In this document: one piece after another, positions 55,767 through 62,674 of the stretch
Position numbering within the stretch: the stretch's first letter is position 1
Layout: every line of letters begins with the position of its first letter
DNA from: Prevotella communis
GTDB lineage: Bacteria; Bacteroidota; Bacteroidia; Bacteroidales; Bacteroidaceae
DNA length: 64,000 nt
Reading direction: 5' to 3'
Assembly: GCF_022024115.1 (NCBI RefSeq)
Contig: NZ_CP091792.1
Span: 992,001-1,056,000, forward strand
The notes under the pieces: generated by a model
The model's database searches: none
The model's input: the letters and a program-made list of their open reading frames with translations, nothing else
Told to the model about the DNA's origin: nothing
Position numbers and translations under genes: made by a program

Positions 55767-56170
55767 CTTCCGACACTCACCCGTTACATCTCTATCGGTT
55801 ATAAAGTAAAACCCAGTCTATTGTTCCTCATTTCTTAGCAGTAGAGTAGTAAAGAAATTCTCTAGAGAATTTTGTCCTTACTAAGTGATATAGCATTTGC
55901 TACTTAGTTATACAGGAAGAAATTCTCTAGAGAATTTTTCTACTATCATATAGAAGGCAGATTGAAAGTCCGTAATTTCGTTCTTGTTACTACGTTAAAC
56001 AGACCTGATAAGTCAATACAAATAGTACCCAGAAATACAAGAGAACTAGAAGAAGATCCCATAGTGATTCCTGATTAGAATGGCTACGTTCCACAACATT
56101 CTTGCATAGGTAAGCGTTAAGTGGCAGCTCGTGAGGAAGGAACTGTATGATGGTAAGAAATTACAATAGA
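55767..56170. other. Gene-free stretch upstream of the CRISPR leader
   Basis: About 400 bases with no convincing gene. A 60-codon minus-strand frame (56046-56228) has no recognisable protein character and runs through the CRISPR leader promoter. What is visible: two identical 18-bp palindromes (55855-55872 and 55920-55937) with a smaller inverted repeat between them. The rest is unremarkable. Confidence 0.6.
55855..55937. repeat. Twin 18-bp perfect palindromes
   Basis: AAATTCTCTAGAGAATTT occurs at 55855-55872 and again at 55920-55937, exactly 65 bases apart start to start; both copies are preceded by GA. Between them ACTAAGT and ACTTAGT form a small inverted repeat. Each palindrome is perfectly two-fold symmetric with CTAG at the centre, as expected of a dimer-binding operator; a miniature element is another possibility. 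Confidence 0.75.
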
Positions 56171-56171
56171 T

Positions 56172-56203
56172 TTTGGTGGTTTGAAAAAAACATCGTATAT
56201 TTG
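56172..56203 (+). promoter_or_regulatory. CRISPR leader promoter
   Basis: TTTG at 56172-56175 and TATATTTG at 56196-56203 are 20 bases apart, a standard Bacteroidetes promoter pointing toward the array 80 bases downstream. Confidence 0.7.
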
Positions 56204-56215
56204 CAGCGCAAAGGG

Positions 56216-56227
56216 TGGTCTTTGACA
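56216..56227 (+). promoter_or_regulatory. boxA-like antitermination site in the CRISPR leader
   Basis: TGGTCTTTGACA matches 10 of 12 positions of the E. coli boxA consensus TGCTCTTTAACA. It lies between the leader promoter and the first repeat, where NusB/S10 binding would protect a long untranslated transcript from Rho. boxA elements in CRISPR leaders are known from other bacteria. Confidence 0.6.
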
Positions 56228-56284
56228 TATTAGTATAAAGAATACATACATAGTCTGTTATTCGCGTTCCCCCCGGCGTTCAGC

Positions 56285-56714
56285 GTTGTGAATACCTCTC
56301 AATTAGTACGAAAGCAATATCATAAACAGTGCGCAGGTCGATGTCTTCCGTGCGCTGCTCGTTGTGAATACCTCTCAAATTAGTACGAAAGCAATATCAT
56401 AAACAGTCTGGATGATGTACTTGCCGTCGTAGGGGATGTTGTGAATACCTCTCAAATTAGTACGAAAGCAATATCATAAACAGTATCATGTCCGACGCGA
56501 TGCAGAACTCACCAGTTGTGAATACCTCTCAAATTAGTACGAAAGCAATATCATAAACAGTGTAAAAAAAATCAAATCCGAGAAGGCTGAGTTGTGAATA
56601 CCTCTCAAATTAGTACGAAAGCAATATCATAAACAGTCATCACCTCATTCTTCTGCCAAGTAACACCGTTGTGAATACCTCTCAAATTAGTACGAAAGCA
56701 ATATCATAAACAGT
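56285..56714 (+). CRISPR. Type II CRISPR array, 6 repeats and 5 spacers
   Basis: Repeats of 47 bp begin at 56361, 56438, 56515, 56591 and 56668. The first, at 56285-56330, is 46 bp because it lacks one A in the CTCTCAAATTAG segment. All start GTTGTGAATACCTC and end ATCATAAACAGT. Spacers are 30, 30, 30, 29 and 30 bp. The 5' part of the repeat pairs with the anti-repeat at 60582-60601, so transcription is on the plus strand, from the promoter at 56196. The repeat size and 5' GTTGTG are typical of Bacteroidetes type II-C arrays. Confidence 0.97.
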
Positions 56715-56788
56715 AGATCTGCCGTAAAAGACAGAACCACAGAGATTTATGATTGCAAACAGGAAAACAAAAATGTTTGTGATAACAG

Positions 56789-56820
56789 AGAAATCCCTCG
56801 ATAGTGAGGGATTTCTTTTA
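56789..56820. terminator. Terminator of the CRISPR array, beside the cas9 stop
   Basis: A perfect 11-bp stem (56789-56799 with 56806-56816, AGAAATCCCTC / GAGGGATTTCT) has a 6-base loop, followed in the plus direction by TTTTATT. It closes the array transcript and may also serve cas9, whose stop is at 56818-56820. Confidence 0.85.
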
Positions 56821-59800
56821 TTCTGCATACTCTATATGTCCAATCTTGGTTATCCGAACTTTTACAGCACCCTTTAAATCGTTTATAACACGAATTCTTT
56901 TCCACGTCATGTTTTTCAATTTCGCATTATTGTTTTTCGTCGCATCGTACTGATGTCTGAAACGATAGTCTCCTTCCGATATGGCCTGAACCTTGAATAA
57001 GTGTGGACTTATCAAAGCATAGTTATCTTTTGCGGTCAGATCTATGTCAGCTGGATTGAAACCTGTGGCCTCGTCGGGGAACACAAAGCAGTCGTTCTGC
57101 TGAAGCGAAAACAGGAACCTCCAGCCCTTGTCTGCATTATATGTCATGTCGATGACGGGGTTACCCTGTATGGCGCTGTCAACAGCATCGAAAAATGACA
57201 CCACAACTTCGTGCAACTCATGCTGCGCATCTTCGTATATCGCAACATGATGATTGTTGTTTGTTCTGACGTAGTCGGCAGATTGGACCTTACCATCCTT
57301 GTCAAGCAGCAGCTCGCCCTTGTTGTCGTGTTTTTTGTGGATGGCTCGGGCATCCTTTAATTTGGTTCTTACGATGACCCGTTTGATGCGGATGCCTTTC
57401 TCACGATTAAACCAGATGGGATTCTCTTCCAGATTGGAAAAAGCCTCTTTGGGTTTGTTGCCATACTCGCGAAGTCTTTCTTGCAGAATGCGCTGTACGC
57501 CCTTGTCAACGACATCATTTACATTTAAACTCTCGTTCACCTCAACACGTTTGGTGAACACCTTTACGCCATTCTCCATGATGCTGCCATAGTAGGTATC
57601 ATCGTGCAGTTTGCCTCTTGGCGTTAGCTGTATCTGGCGGTTGCCTTCTTTTTTCTTCTTACTCTTCGAGATGTTCAGGTTTGGTGTTACTGCGTTTATT
57701 GCTGGTTTTTGATAAACGTTGATTCTCTCCAGCTGTTGTTTGACTTCGGCACGCAACTCTCCCAATGGCATTGGCTCATTGAAGCGCCAGTTGCCCTGCT
57801 TGTCGCGATGCAGATTTTTCTGTCGCATCTTCATCAACTGTTCCCGCTTTTCGCCCTCAGCATTCAGACTGTTGAGGTAATTGATGAAAGCAGGCTTGGT
57901 GAAGGCAACGGTGATAGCATCCATCGCGTGGTTACGATGGTCGGTACGCTTAGTCCAGGCATCCTCGTTGATCTTGCGAACCGTCTTACCGTCTTTGTCC
58001 TCGTAGGTATCAATCAGCTCCAGTTTGTCGTATTTGTCCCAAACGAGTTCCTGTAATACATCCACCAATTGCCAGTCGTCGCGCAGGCGGCTGGTAATGC
58101 TACCGGTAGTGGGTACTACCTTTCGGGTGATAGTACCCAGCAGTTCGTAAGCCTTGCGGTTGATGTATTGTGTTAGGCCCAAATCCCTTGTCAGAGGCTC
58201 GTCCTGAATGTCGGCTGCTGTGCGCAGCAGATTGTCCTTCTTGGCTTTGCTGATGGCTTTCTTCTTGAATAGGTCGTTGACTCTGGCTATATACTGCTGG
58301 GCTTCGGCCTCGCCATATTTCCACTTCACATAGTCCAGAGCCGTCATATCGCCCTTCTCCTCATTGATGCTCGAAAGTTCTACCGTCAGCACCGAGAAAG
58401 CGTTGCTGGGGCTTTTGGCTTTGGGGATGATGTGTTCCTTGTCGAACTTACGATGGATGATAAGGTCAACCAAATCGACCTTGGTCTTAGAATAAAGCGT
58501 CTTGTATCCAAGAGGTGCCAACTCCTTATATAATCTGTATTTCAGGATGTCGTTTTCGCTGACGTAGGTTACATGATAGCCTCTTTCGTTCAGCTGGTCA
58601 ATGAGTTCCTGTCGGCACTTTGCTCGTTCGTTCTTATTATTCTCTATGTCCTGAGTCATTCGCCTTCGGCTTTCTGCGTTCTTGCTCAGGTCGCGTGCAA
58701 GTTCAATGCGTATCTCGTTGAATTGACCATACTCATCGCCATATTCGTCTATCAATCCGTTTACAACCGAAACCATCTGGTTAAGGACTCTTTCTACTAG
58801 CGGATTGCGCAGGCTATTATGAGGAATGGGTTGCAAGTAATGGTGCAAAACGCGGCTTTCGTTCTCTTCCTTGGTGATGGAACGCTTGGAGTGATTGTAA
58901 CCTGCTTTTTCGCAGGCTTCATTATACTGATAACCCTCTTTCAGGAATGGTAGTAACTTTTGTATGGCTTTGGCGCTGAGGCTGCGATATCCATCGGGGA
59001 ATTTAACATCGGCAATGATCTTGGCGTATTCATCGTTGTCGAAGCCGAAGAACTCCTTTACACGTTGCACAAGTTTGGCACTGCCTGAGCGTGAATTGTC
59101 GCCAGGGAAAGAATAGAGCAGATGCCACAACTTATAGTGAGGCTGCATGTAGATTTCAGGACCTATCATGACTTCGCCATTCAGCGCTTCCGTCTTGTAA
59201 CCCAAGCCTTCAAATACCTTGCATATAACATTAAGCACATCTTGTGCCTTCATCTTCTTGATGTCCAATATGTCGTGACCTGTCATTTCCAATATCTTCA
59301 GATATGCGCTCACCAGTCTGGTCTGAGTCTCGTTGCCAATGAGGGTGTCGAAGTTCAGGTCGTAGGTCTTTGTCTGTTTGCCAACAAGCAGTTTGATGGC
59401 GGCTGTTTTTGTCAGTTCCTTCCTAATAGACAGTTCTGCGGCCAGCATCTCCTTCTGTTCCAGCGTCAGAGCGTATTGCTCAAGCGTGGTGGTGTTGGTG
59501 AGAACGACATCATTCAGTCGCTGCCACATCCTGAATTCTTGGAATAAGGGCGACGATATGGGGCAGACTCTGCTACCTGTTGTTACAAGTTGCTTCTTGC
59601 CGTTTTTCTCAACCTCTATCTGATGACTCTCCAGTTCGCAAAAACTCAGGTCCTGTTTCTTGCTCTCTATGGGGCGTTGGAAGAAAATAATACGGTTCTT
59701 AATTTCCTTCTTTAGTTTGCGAGTTAGTTCTGGGTGGAATGCCATCTGCGTCTTCCAAATCTGCTCAAACTCATCCTCGTAGTCCTTGCGATAGAATGTC

Positions 59801-60417
59801 TGGCGCTTGATGCCTTTCAATGGATTGAGAGTCAGTTGGTTCATCAGGTATTGGCCAACGGTCTGATGGTTCTCAACCAACGTATTACTGCGTCCTGTTA
59901 TGGCAGCCAGATAGGCTCCCATATCCTCTATGTCGGTATCAGCTTCGCCCTTACGGATGCTTTTATATCCGCGCTTTTTGTTAATCATGAGCAGTACCCT
60001 TGCCAGCTCGCTTAATGAGATTTCCTCACGTGCAGCCTTTGATCGCAACATGAGGGTTTCGTAGGTGGTTCCCTTGCCGTCTTCACACAGCAGGGTATCG
60101 CCGTCAATGAAACCATTCTCGCGCAACAGGGCTATCAGGTCGGCACGTCTTTGTTTGTATCGCTGAAGTTTACGATGGGCTCCACGTTTCTGCCGTCTCA
60201 CCAAATTGGGAGAAACGGTGAGTCCCTTTCTGAACATGTCAATAGGCTTACCCTCTGAAATCTTGCCTTTGGCATTCATATACGCAAAATTGTCAAAATC
60301 AACCTTGACGACATTCGAATCAATAATCCTTGATTGTTCGTTGTCGTTCTCTGCTTCTAATATCAGCGCCCAGCCGATACTGGCAATTCCCGGGTCTAAT
60401 CCTAGTATAAATTTCAT
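56818..60417 (-). CDS. cas9: Cas9 nuclease, probable type II-C
   Basis: A 1199-residue RNA-guided DNA endonuclease that cuts targets matched by crRNA and tracrRNA. RuvC-I has Asp8 (FILGLDPGIASIGWAL); an arginine-rich bridge helix lies at about 72-100 (RRQKRGAHRKLQRYKQRR). RuvC-II has Glu572 (IRIELARDL), HNH has Glu661-His662 (DKEHIIPKAKS) and Asn685, and RuvC-III has His830 and Asp833 (HRNHAMDAI). All nuclease residues are therefore present. The recognition lobe spans about 100-560 and the PAM-interacting end about 850-1199. ATG at 60417 is used; an upstream frame would add 37 residues that cross the -7 box at 60446-60453. No cas1, cas2 or csn2 is adjacent. PAM unknown. Confidence 0.97.
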   Translation of the reverse strand: MKFILGLDPGIASIGWALILEAENDNEQSRIIDSNVVKVDFDNFAYMNAKGKISEGKPIDMFRKGLTVSPNLVRRQKRGAHRKLQRYKQRRADLIALLRENGFIDGDTLLCEDGKGTTYETLMLRSKAAREEISLSELARVLLMINKKRGYKSIRKGEADTDIEDMGAYLAAITGRSNTLVENHQTVGQYLMNQLTLNPLKGIKRQTFYRKDYEDEFEQIWKTQMAFHPELTRKLKKEIKNRIIFFQRPIESKKQDLSFCELESHQIEVEKNGKKQLVTTGSRVCPISSPLFQEFRMWQRLNDVVLTNTTTLEQYALTLEQKEMLAAELSIRKELTKTAAIKLLVGKQTKTYDLNFDTLIGNETQTRLVSAYLKILEMTGHDILDIKKMKAQDVLNVICKVFEGLGYKTEALNGEVMIGPEIYMQPHYKLWHLLYSFPGDNSRSGSAKLVQRVKEFFGFDNDEYAKIIADVKFPDGYRSLSAKAIQKLLPFLKEGYQYNEACEKAGYNHSKRSITKEENESRVLHHYLQPIPHNSLRNPLVERVLNQMVSVVNGLIDEYGDEYGQFNEIRIELARDLSKNAESRRRMTQDIENNKNERAKCRQELIDQLNERGYHVTYVSENDILKYRLYKELAPLGYKTLYSKTKVDLVDLIIHRKFDKEHIIPKAKSPSNAFSVLTVELSSINEEKGDMTALDYVKWKYGEAEAQQYIARVNDLFKKKAISKAKKDNLLRTAADIQDEPLTRDLGLTQYINRKAYELLGTITRKVVPTTGSITSRLRDDWQLVDVLQELVWDKYDKLELIDTYEDKDGKTVRKINEDAWTKRTDHRNHAMDAITVAFTKPAFINYLNSLNAEGEKREQLMKMRQKNLHRDKQGNWRFNEPMPLGELRAEVKQQLERINVYQKPAINAVTPNLNISKSKKKKEGNRQIQLTPRGKLHDDTYYGSIMENGVKVFTKRVEVNESLNVNDVVDKGVQRILQERLREYGNKPKEAFSNLEENPIWFNREKGIRIKRVIVRTKLKDARAIHKKHDNKGELLLDKDGKVQSADYVRTNNNHHVAIYEDAQHELHEVVVSFFDAVDSAIQGNPVIDMTYNADKGWRFLFSLQQNDCFVFPDEATGFNPADIDLTAKDNYALISPHLFKVQAISEGDYRFRHQYDATKNNNAKLKNMTWKRIRVINDLKGAVKVRITKIGHIEYAE

Positions 60418-60445
60418 AGGGTAGCAGCAATTAAATAATGTCTTG

Positions 60446-60453
60446 CAAAGATA
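60446..60453 (-). promoter_or_regulatory. -7 box of cas9
   Basis: The minus strand reads TATCTTTG, 29 bases before the cas9 start; no clear -33 partner was found. Confidence 0.55.
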
Positions 60454-60545
60454 GTAAAAAGGCGACGTAATGAGATAAAAACAGCATCGATTTTTAAAAT
60501 AATTAAAGTTTAGGATATGATTTGGCAATATTTTTCGTCGTTTTC

Positions 60546-60576
60546 TTTGTTCATTCTAAGAAAAAACGTATCTTTG
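60546..60576 (+). promoter_or_regulatory. tracrRNA promoter
   Basis: TTTG at 60546-60549 and TATCTTTG at 60569-60576 are exactly 19 bases apart. The anti-repeat begins 6 bases later. Confidence 0.75.
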
Positions 60577-60581
60577 CAGCA

Positions 60582-60673
60582 CTAATTTGAGGTATTCACA
60601 ATAAGGATTATTCCGTTGTGAACATTAAAGAGAGCCAAAGCTATTTCCTAATAGTGGCGGTTCTTTTTCTTTT
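60582..60673 (+). ncRNA. tracrRNA
   Basis: The trans-activating RNA that pairs with crRNA repeats to load Cas9. Positions 60582-60601 are complementary to repeat bases 2-23, with all 20 anti-repeat bases pairing and a 2-base bulge on the crRNA side. Next come GGATTATTCC and CACAA/TTGTG, an inverted pair that makes the nexus hairpin. A 3' stem with CTATT/AATAG and GCC/GGC pairs (about 60630-60665) and a T-rich tail ends it. The gene is on the strand opposite to cas9, upstream of its start; the array is on the same strand as this RNA. Exact ends are estimated. Confidence 0.9.
60629..60673 (+). terminator. tracrRNA terminator
   Basis: An imperfect hairpin with CTATTtcctAATAG at the tip and GCC/GGC below, then TTCTTTTTCTTTT. 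It ends 10 bases from the stop of the convergent HEPN gene. Confidence 0.65.
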
Positions 60674-60682
60674 GGGGTATTG

Positions 60683-61540
60683 TTACTCTCTATGTTTTGA
60701 TAGCACAAATCTGTTCAGACTATCTTTATTTAGTTCTATAAACTCATTACTGTGTGACTCTAAGAATTTAGGTGACATCTTCTGAATTAACTTTGGCAAT
60801 AATAATTCAAAGAGCTTTTGGGTTGATCCTATTGTGACTGTCAACAATGTGTTTAATTCGCCTATAAATGCTTTCTTGGTTTTTGCCAGAAGATACTTGT
60901 TTGCCTTTGTACCCTCTATGTATTCATGCATATCATCCGCTGTTAACGGCTTTGTGTGAAGGCTCGACCAAATGATAGTAAGGTGATAGTTGTCTAGCAT
61001 TTTGGAAGACAAAAGTCCCTCGTGAGAAACCTTATTTCTCTTTTGCTCATGTTCTTGTATTACAGAATAATAGTGTTCTATTAGCTCGACAATATCATTC
61101 TCACCATTTGCATTCAACGCATCACGCAATTTGTTCCATTGAATCATTCTTTTGCTGCCAATATTAATATCGCACAACTCAACTAACAGCTTAAAGTACA
61201 AATCGTGAATAGTCGTAATAGAATGACAGAATGAAGAGTAATGATATCTATAGAAATCGTATGCAGTATAACCCTTTTCTGAGTAGTATTTAGCATTATA
61301 ACGCCTCTTGATTTGCAAGATGGCGAGTTGCATATATGACATTGATGATGTAATCCCCATCATAATTTTTCTTACCTTTTTGAGACACGTTTCGTGTGGT
61401 AAAAGTGGTGGACGCTCACCTTTTATTTTGCTCTCAATATAAGGATACGACCGCACGATATCGTCTAAGCTGGCAAAATCATCCAAGATAAGAACTATCT
61501 CGAAGAAAGGTGTTTTTGTCACAAGGTTGATATTATTCAT
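60683..61540 (-). CDS. HEPN-motif protein (Cthe_2314-like)
   Basis: A 285-residue, mostly helical cytoplasmic protein. HEPN RNase signature R-x4-H is present at Arg168 to His173 (KRNKVSHEG), with a preceding helix EHYYSVIQEHEQ. The overall pattern recalls Cthe_2314-like HEPN proteins, which are often found in defence or toxin settings. It is convergent with the tracrRNA gene and divergent from the RhuM-Fic gene, each with its own -7 box. Possible roles are a ribonuclease effector or an abortive-infection factor; nothing in the sequence proves it works with Cas9. Confidence 0.75.
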   Translation of the reverse strand: MNNINLVTKTPFFEIVLILDDFASLDDIVRSYPYIESKIKGERPPLLPHETCLKKVRKIMMGITSSMSYMQLAILQIKRRYNAKYYSEKGYTAYDFYRYHYSSFCHSITTIHDLYFKLLVELCDINIGSKRMIQWNKLRDALNANGENDIVELIEHYYSVIQEHEQKRNKVSHEGLLSSKMLDNYHLTIIWSSLHTKPLTADDMHEYIEGTKANKYLLAKTKKAFIGELNTLLTVTIGSTQKLFELLLPKLIQKMSPKFLESHSNEFIELNKDSLNRFVLSKHRE

Positions 61541-61564
61541 AAGTCATTATGTCATTGGTTTGTG

Positions 61565-61666
61565 CAAAGATACGAATAAAAATCAGAGGAAGAAACTTTT
61601 TCTATGATTTAAGACGTAACATTTCCATTTTTTGCATACTATATTAATAGAAAAGTATTACTTTTG
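61565..61666. promoter_or_regulatory. Divergent promoters of the HEPN and RhuM-Fic genes
   Basis: TATCTTTG on the minus strand at 61565-61572 and TACTTTTG on the plus strand at 61659-61666 precede the two divergent genes. Confidence 0.55.
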
Positions 61667-61684
61667 CAAAACGAAAAGAATGTT

Positions 61685-62674
61685 ATGAAACAGGATCAGA
61701 TTGTAATCTATCAGACGGAGGATGGGCAGACACAGATTGATGTCCGTCTAGAGAATGAGACAGTATGGTTGACGCAGACTCAGATGGCTCAATTATTCAA
61801 GTCATCTCGTACGAACGTATTAGAGCACATCCTGCATATCTACGAAGACGAGGAACTGGAGAAAGAGGCAACATGTCGGAATTTCCGACAGGTTCGTCAG
61901 GAGGGCAAGCGTATGGTTAATCGTACGATAACAATGTACAATCTTGACATGATTATCTCCGTTGGTTATCGAGTCAATTCTAAACGAGGTGTGAAATTCC
62001 GTCAGTGGGCAAATAAGGTGCTCAAAGACTATCTGATAAAAGGCTACGTCGTAAACGAGCGCATCCGCAAGGAGCAGCTTGGTGAGTTGCGACAGTTGGT
62101 GCAGGTGGCCAGTCGTGCCATTAGCAATCAGAAGGTGGAGAAGACGGTTGAGAATCAGGACCTGCTGAATGTGGTGGTAGATTATACTTACGCCCTTGAT
62201 ACACTCGACAACTATGACTATGAACGTCTGACTATCGATAAGACTACAAGTCAGGAGAAGTTTCATGCCACTTATGATAATGCGATGGAGGAGATAGCTC
62301 GCCTGCGTGAGAAGTTTGGCGGCTCTTCACTCTTTGGCAATGAGAAGGATGAGTCGTTCAAGAGTAGCATCGGACAGATTTATCAGACGTTTGGTGGTGA
62401 GGAACTCTATCCCAGTGTGGAGGAGAAGGCTGCTATGCTGCTGTATCTGGTGACGAAGAACCACTCGTTTAGCGACGGCAACAAACGCATTGCTGCCACG
62501 CTGTTCCTTTGGTTCCTGAATAACAACGGCATTCTGTATCGTGAGGACGGCTCAAAGCGACTGGCTGATAATACCCTTGTGGCTCTGACGCTGATGATTG
62601 CAGAGAGTAAGACAGAAGAGAAGGACGTGATGGTGAAGGTGGTGGTGAACCTGATTAACCAGCGGAACGAGTGA
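61685..62674 (+). CDS. RhuM-like domain fused to Fic/Doc domain
   Basis: A 329-residue protein. Residues 1-130 match the RhuM virulence-protein domain (VWLTQTQMAQLFKSSRTNV, DMIISVGYRVNSKRGVKFR), a putative nucleic-acid or regulatory module. The C-terminal half is a Fic domain with motif HSFSDGNKR (His260 to Arg268). GNKR, rather than the GNGR of AMP-transferring Fic enzymes, is closer to Doc, which phosphorylates EF-Tu. RhuM-Fic/Doc genes occur in accessory islands with restriction and toxin systems. ATG at 61685 is used. No antitoxin (Phd-like) gene is adjacent. A very strong hairpin follows. Confidence 0.85.
   Translation: MKQDQIVIYQTEDGQTQIDVRLENETVWLTQTQMAQLFKSSRTNVLEHILHIYEDEELEKEATCRNFRQVRQEGKRMVNRTITMYNLDMIISVGYRVNSKRGVKFRQWANKVLKDYLIKGYVVNERIRKEQLGELRQLVQVASRAISNQKVEKTVENQDLLNVVVDYTYALDTLDNYDYERLTIDKTTSQEKFHATYDNAMEEIARLREKFGGSSLFGNEKDESFKSSIGQIYQTFGGEELYPSVEEKAAMLLYLVTKNHSFSDGNKRIAATLFLWFLNNNGILYREDGSKRLADNTLVALTLMIAESKTEEKDVMVKVVVNLINQRNE

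Follow-up and report, generated by a model that had tools for sequence, protein, structure and literature searches.

The window, by which we mean the whole 64-kb stretch of Prevotella communis DNA analysed here, carries at positions 56172-60673 a compact block consisting, in this order, of a promoter-like site, a CRISPR array (+), a hairpin, cas9 (-) and a tracrRNA (+). The feature coordinates (Table 1) bear out the initial annotation, which had described such a block with an array of five spacers and with cas9 on the minus strand between an array and a tracrRNA on the plus strand. The first repeat (R1, 56285-56330) is 46 nt long with one base missing, R2 to R6 are identical 47-mers, and the spacers measure 29-30 nt. 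Both promoters were called on what we take to be the Bacteroidota promoter consensus, TTTG-N19-21-TAnnTTTG; that of the array is unchanged in sequence in E15-14, a second strain of the species. The hairpin between the array and the end of cas9 is a probable two-way terminator. Upstream of the array, two 32-nt arms containing AAATTCTCTAGAGAATTT lie 35 nt apart at 55847-55945 and are 88% complementary, an arrangement also present in E15-14.

Table 1. Features of the CRISPR-cas9 block, in window coordinates.
Feature	Position	Strand	Description
Array promoter (putative)	56172..56203	+	TTTG (56172-56175), 20 nt, TATATTTG (56196-56203)
CRISPR array	56285..56714	+	6 repeats, 5 spacers
Hairpin	56790..56815	.	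GAAATCCCTC-GATAGT-GAGGGATTTC; between array and cas9 end; by folding
cas9	60417-56818	-	1199 aa
tracrRNA promoter (putative)	60546..60576	+	TTTG (60546-60549), 19 nt, TATCTTTG (60569-60576)
tracrRNA	~60580..60673	+	anti-repeat 60582-60601, hairpin, T-run; start and end inferred

The cas9 frame matches the Cas9 equivalog TIGR01865 with 438.5 bits (cut-off 100) as well as the domains PF18541 and PF13395, and its PDB matches comprise CbCas9 and chains mostly named just Cas9, which we take to include NmeCas9. The RuvC and HNH motifs align with these solved chains and with relatives, in agreement with the earlier statement that the catalytic residues look intact: D8, E572, H662, N685, H830 and D833, to which we assign catalytic roles, lie within catalytic motifs and are invariant across 15 aligned Cas9 (own sequence included). 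An AlphaFold2 model built from 15 sequences was too poor to use (mean pLDDT 60.6, pTM 0.33). The tracrRNA has no Rfam family match at the gathering threshold. Both hallmarks of type II are present in the window, a Cas9 with RuvC and HNH and a tracrRNA pairing with the repeat in a predicted duplex. Family searches of the neighbouring ORFs retrieved a weak HEPN match, a RhuM-Fic protein, a glycerate kinase, an HU protein and glmS, and neither csn2 nor cas4. The HEPN-like protein (weak, below the cut-off) and the RhuM-Fic protein lie beside the tracrRNA at 60683-62674; in places this stretch has no alignable counterpart in E15-14 or in the related metagenomic contig L037, and it therefore looks like a variable spot.

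The absence of cas1 and cas2 near the locus, noted in the initial annotation, holds and extends to the complete genome, a single contig of 3,567,699 bp (99.31% complete). Across the whole 3.57-Mb chromosome there were 0 matches to Cas1 (PF01867) and 0 to Cas2 (PF09827) at E <= 0.001, in searches that matched Cas1 in 9 and Cas2 in 7 of 14 control genomes; the cas1 and cas2 of a canonical II-C operon were not found in it, and the possibility raised earlier that these genes lie elsewhere in it was not borne out. The suggested check for further arrays with the same repeat revealed no second array in the chromosome: the first 23 nt of the repeat, with up to 3 mismatches, occur at five places, all within this array. 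A 27-nt piece of the repeat is absent from all other genomes among the 398 of the genus, and a 32-nt piece has no exact match in IMG/VR. The native array found nothing better than E=5 in phage and plasmid collections. Among 299 genomes of the genus it found itself and stretches of one genome (G058; 66-70% identity) near the Cas1 of that genome, which we take to be that genome's own array with a similar repeat; the best spacer match in the same 299 genomes (26/30, G279) has no shared flank and was treated as chance. We read the locus, from its sequence, as an interference-only system of type II-C.

In a tree of 35 Cas9 the window protein groups, with a support of 100/100, with those of E15-14, the metagenome-assembled contig L037, RUG030 (L038) and G050:C30, a clade that has diverged to 57-63% identity. 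Closer Cas9 relatives are P0002-P0025, from metagenome contigs, at 86-99% identity and P0026-P0052 at 76-80%. The state without cas1 and cas2 is common to this whole clade wherever downstream sequence exists: the genes are absent beside cas9 in 4 of 4 such members (whole genome for the window, ~10 kb each for L036 and L038, ~12 kb for L051), the contig L037 ending inside cas9, so that its downstream side stands outside this count. No Cas1 match was found in the genome of RUG030, nor in that of L037 (G300, taken to be the same as G112; 71% complete), and G050 carries two Cas1 genes, at loci other than G050:C30. The clade also has its own promoter layout. A TAnnTTTG box lies upstream of each of its three distinct arrays (window, RUG030, G050:C30) and inside the repeat of none of them (0/3), whereas 13 of the 14 cas1-bearing arrays checked have it within the repeat. 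This changed layout fits a single origin. Repeat-encoded promoters are stated for II-C (PMC8092290), and the window instead has a repeat free of TAnnTTTG and one such box upstream of R1. The tree program flags several long branches of unsure place, G050:C30 and G096:C82 among them.

Cas9 of the window lineage is furthermore devoid of a ~130-aa segment of the recognition lobe. A cas1 match comes after every one of the 51 examined Cas9 that have this segment; in L018, L174 and L184 this match is short. We considered a joint loss of the segment and of cas1-cas2 and rejected it: a distant subfamily also lacks the segment and mostly carries cas1, so that a gain in the sister group is an equally good reading.

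The closest comparison is offered by P. communis E15-14 (L036), which we equate with the genome classed as the same species on grounds of identical match coordinates. Its Cas9 is 98% identical to that of the window, the locus layout is the same and likewise without cas1 and cas2, the array flanks agree at 149/150 and 101/104 bases, the repeats are identical, and the degenerate first repeat is common to both strains. The spacers are entirely different: none of the 5 in the window is shared with the 6 of E15-14, the best ungapped identity of any pair being 0.65. The initial annotation had named frequent new spacers among strains as evidence that would count against its view, and this is partly borne out; the spacers do differ, in a comparison of two strains and with an E15-14 that is itself without an intact Cas1. 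Its two alternatives, a Cas1-Cas2 from elsewhere or an end to acquisition, were the right pair, and in view of the 0/5 shared spacers the second is not simply true. The same difference could result if the two strains had each lost other spacers of a longer ancestral array. In an explanation that we find quite conceivable, though we lean against it, P. communis would have lost the genes more recently, interference would still work, nothing would have been acquired since, and the two strains would have kept different parts of one longer array, the rest having been deleted by events between repeats. Random retention gives disjoint sets of 5 and 6 with a probability of 0.13 from 20 ancestral spacers and 0.42 from 40, and the shared degenerate R1 is also consistent with such a remnant.

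The only Cas1 match in the E15-14 genome is an open frame of 82 codons with a cas1-like start, located in a second type II locus (L050:5607-10640), which has 14 repeats and an open cas9 of 1220 aa. The copy at G050:C1 is intact; relative to it, a deletion in this second locus has fused the beginning of cas1 with the end of cas2, from which we conclude that a source of Cas1-Cas2 probably existed in the past of the species. The same chromosomal site in the window's genome (L155) holds genes that, judged by their sequence, look like a restriction-modification set of type I.

Array length and repeat ageing bear on both explanations. Arrays without intact cas1 hold 4-15 repeats (n=10) versus 10-58 (n=15) for those with it (p=1e-4, uncorrected for kinship; 0.0003 with the 24-repeat array of G050:C30 added and 0.0006 with one P. 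communis row also dropped), as would be expected of remnants. This comparison drew on 22 cas1-intact loci (19, picked by hand, of the 54 described below, plus L052, L053 and L039), giving 15 complete arrays, 5 stretches without an array and 2 arrays reaching the stretch end, and on 12 loci without intact cas1, giving 10 complete arrays and 2 reaching the stretch end. Most of the 24 repeats of G050:C30 are unlike one another. At the positions that pair with its own tracrRNA, deviations affect 34 of 480 cells (15/480 break pairing), against 73 of 360 at the other positions, a contrast for which the Fisher p of 2e-8 overstates the case since these repeats share descent. A conserved pairing part in an otherwise drifting repeat is as expected where interference persists and repeats are no longer copied. 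In P. communis the repeats have not aged in this way; given the local divergence, one would expect ~4 changes among the 11 non-R1 repeats of the window and E15-14, and there are 0 (P 0.017; with their 3' halves alone, 0.125), which argues against a frozen array.

Further losses of cas1 and cas2 have occurred several times elsewhere in Prevotella. We hand-picked 70 Cas9 places from 67 of 69 matching genomes, the two weakest having no listed place. An intact Cas1 match lies within 6.5 kb of Cas9 at 54 of them and none at 16; contig ends cut 6 of the latter (G112, G043:C86, G039, G060, G085, G223), G272 was left out, and the remaining 9 are G000, G050:C30, G096:C82, G096:C45, G261, G120, G122, G018 and G241. 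Loci beyond this tally are the two of E15-14, that of RUG030 and that of G305, in which the array directly follows cas9. On the tree, the label of having no intact cas1 changes 8 times (7-8 in bootstrap trees), a count made slightly uncertain by L145 (G039), which was treated as cas1-bearing though its contig ends after cas9. In G261 (L151) cas1 is cut to ~148 codons and runs straight into the array, and in G122 it contains a stop codon.

Some of these loci are of interest in their own right. G120 (L152:4106-4601) has a cas1 cut to ~57 codons next to a retained cas2, an open cas9 and 6 repeats. G241 (L146:1728-5324) has an open Cas9 frame of 1198 aa with neither a cas1 or cas2 match nor an array within 13 kb. 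In G096:C82, placed near the window clade though not firmly, a cas2 tail (L054:3904-4053) lies as a scar of loss between the array and a cas9 with one internal stop.

Since losses recur in the genus, independent recent losses may have taken place instead of one old loss, and those seen elsewhere do look recent, since pieces of cas1 or cas2 can still be recognised. A recent loss followed by attrition would explain the short arrays and presupposes no more than a longer ancestral array, yet it requires several separate losses within one clade, and the absence of the genes in every clade member with downstream sequence, together with the shared promoter layout, favours an old one.

Purifying selection acts on cas9. 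Between the window and E15-14, dN/dS is 0.078 over 1199 codons (81.5 synonymous and 25.5 nonsynonymous changes). The computed duplex between the window repeat and tracrRNA amounts to -28.4 kcal/mol with its own tracrRNA, -29.4 with that of E15-14, which has the same repeat, and -26.3 with that of RUG030; the RUG030 repeat reaches -31.9 with its own and -19.7 with that of the window. Over the five repeat/tracrRNA sets compared, the own tracrRNA was the best partner, the exception being the window repeat, whose duplex with the E15-14 tracrRNA is 1 kcal/mol stronger. One might suppose a locus in decay that has ceased to function, given that its adaptation genes are gone, its first repeat is degenerate and cas9 is broken in both G096 relatives. 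The open and constrained cas9 with intact catalytic motifs, and the retention of promoter boxes, tracrRNA pairing and five identical repeats, make this very unlikely in our eyes.

Two spacers match viral contigs. Spacer 2 of the window (56408..56437, +) matches the IMG/VR viral contig L055 at 28/30 positions, within an ORF that we read from its sequence as AdoMet-synthetase-like, and spacer 1 of E15-14 matches L108 and L109 at 28/29. The 3' flanks of the targets, GGAGCCGTAGAT and GGTGCCGGAGCT, agree at 9 of 12 bases, as do 0.0006 of random pairs from both contigs, and represent a candidate PAM, GGNGCC-like and based on two targets only. Pieces of seven spacers out of the 11 were scanned, namely 1, 2, 3 and 5 of the window and 1, 2 and 4 of E15-14. 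Apart from the two close matches, the IMG/VR sequences found (for window spacers 1 and 3 and for spacers 2 and 4 of E15-14) had at least 5 mismatches when the full spacer was compared, and spacer 5 of the window gave no IMG/VR match. Two spacers still matching viral DNA this closely speak against an array frozen since a recent loss. They also speak against a locus that now regulates host genes instead of serving immunity, a role with which the loss of adaptation is compatible and for which we found no direct support; compared with the rest of the 64-kb window, every spacer shows at least 10 mismatches, and we give this idea hardly any credence. In the own-genome check, 2 of 11 candidates were scored, the second being a match of 20/21 made of 10 bases of repeat and 11 of spacer 3.

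We tentatively propose, with a confidence just short of evenly balanced, an interference-only II-C locus that underwent an old, single loss of cas1-cas2 and was later supplied with spacers from outside. Here we infer expression, cutting, the single loss and the outside source. The array transcript would pair with the tracrRNA, and after processing the two would direct Cas9 to cleave phage DNA. Loss of the adaptation genes would be old and probably a single event, preceding the divergence of P. communis, RUG030 and G050:C30, and would have left a locus that would have no machinery of its own for adding spacers and whose interference would have been retained by selection. The present P. communis spacers would most likely postdate the loss and come from outside, either in trans through the Cas1-Cas2 of other type II loci transient in the species or through recombinational exchange with other arrays, and the array would shrink between supply events; alternatively, they may be remnants of a longer array. 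An old loss with outside supply explains the clade-wide absence, the fresh-looking repeats, the viral matches and the differences between strains. The case for renewal is weakened by the short arrays (6 and 7 repeats), which also fit attrition without renewal, and since G050:C30 looks frozen despite two other Cas1 genes in its genome, supply in trans would not be automatic. It is improbable, in our estimation, that this Cas9 lineage has long been without a resident Cas1-Cas2 and yet continues to replenish its spacers by means that do not require these proteins in the cell (array recombination or another integrase, for instance). Overall, the initial view of a minimal type II system is confirmed as an observation and partly supported in its interpretation.

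A Cas9 clade without cas1 and cas2 in any member with downstream sequence, with interference kept under selection and wholly different memories in two strains of one species, raises the question of whether CRISPR immunity can last as an inherited or borrowed memory; the sister strain's entirely different spacers ask how such a memory changes, and the repeated losses in Prevotella provide natural replicates. Literature searches, judged by title and abstract and with most subscription papers outside their scope, turned up no paper on this locus and none that combines P. communis with CRISPR.

Compared with canonical Bacteroidota II-C systems (Sodaliphilus L039, G050:C38), the window locus shares the Cas9 family, the GTTGTGA start of the repeat and the 29-30-nt spacers, and L039 likewise has its tracrRNA beside cas9. 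The canonical systems differ in having cas1-cas2, in a plain cas9-cas1-cas2-array order in relatives such as L039, and in mostly longer arrays, besides the repeat-internal TAnnTTTG and the recognition-lobe segment that distinguish them from the window lineage. Type II systems usually come with a Cas1-Cas2 of their own. In a survey that found 0 of 477 type II loci without Cas1-Cas2, the definition required at least 3 cas genes (PMC5294841). II-D loci are described as sharing cas1, cas2 and cas4 (PMC12669027), so that by description the window locus does not look like II-D. The VI-B locus of Flavobacterium columnare is also without cas1 and cas2 and receives its spacers via another locus, using the II-C Cas1 in trans from a donor in the same genome, whereas no donor was found in the genome of the window (PMC8092290). 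Closest are the Cas9-only II-C loci of Campylobacter coli clade 3, which resemble the window in a II-C cas9 with repeats, conserved nuclease domains and no cas1 or cas2; the genomes chosen for that study hold no further cas genes elsewhere, and allelic exchange is proposed by its authors as a source of spacers (PMC4607530). The C. coli loci belong to one clade of a species whose sister clades keep cas1-cas2, whereas the Cas9 of the window clade has diverged to 57-63% identity, and for C. jejuni and C. coli a relatively low turnover of spacers is suggested, unlike the two P. communis strains, which share no spacer (PMC4607530). Cas9-only II-C loci are already known, and we regard the window locus as a variant of them.
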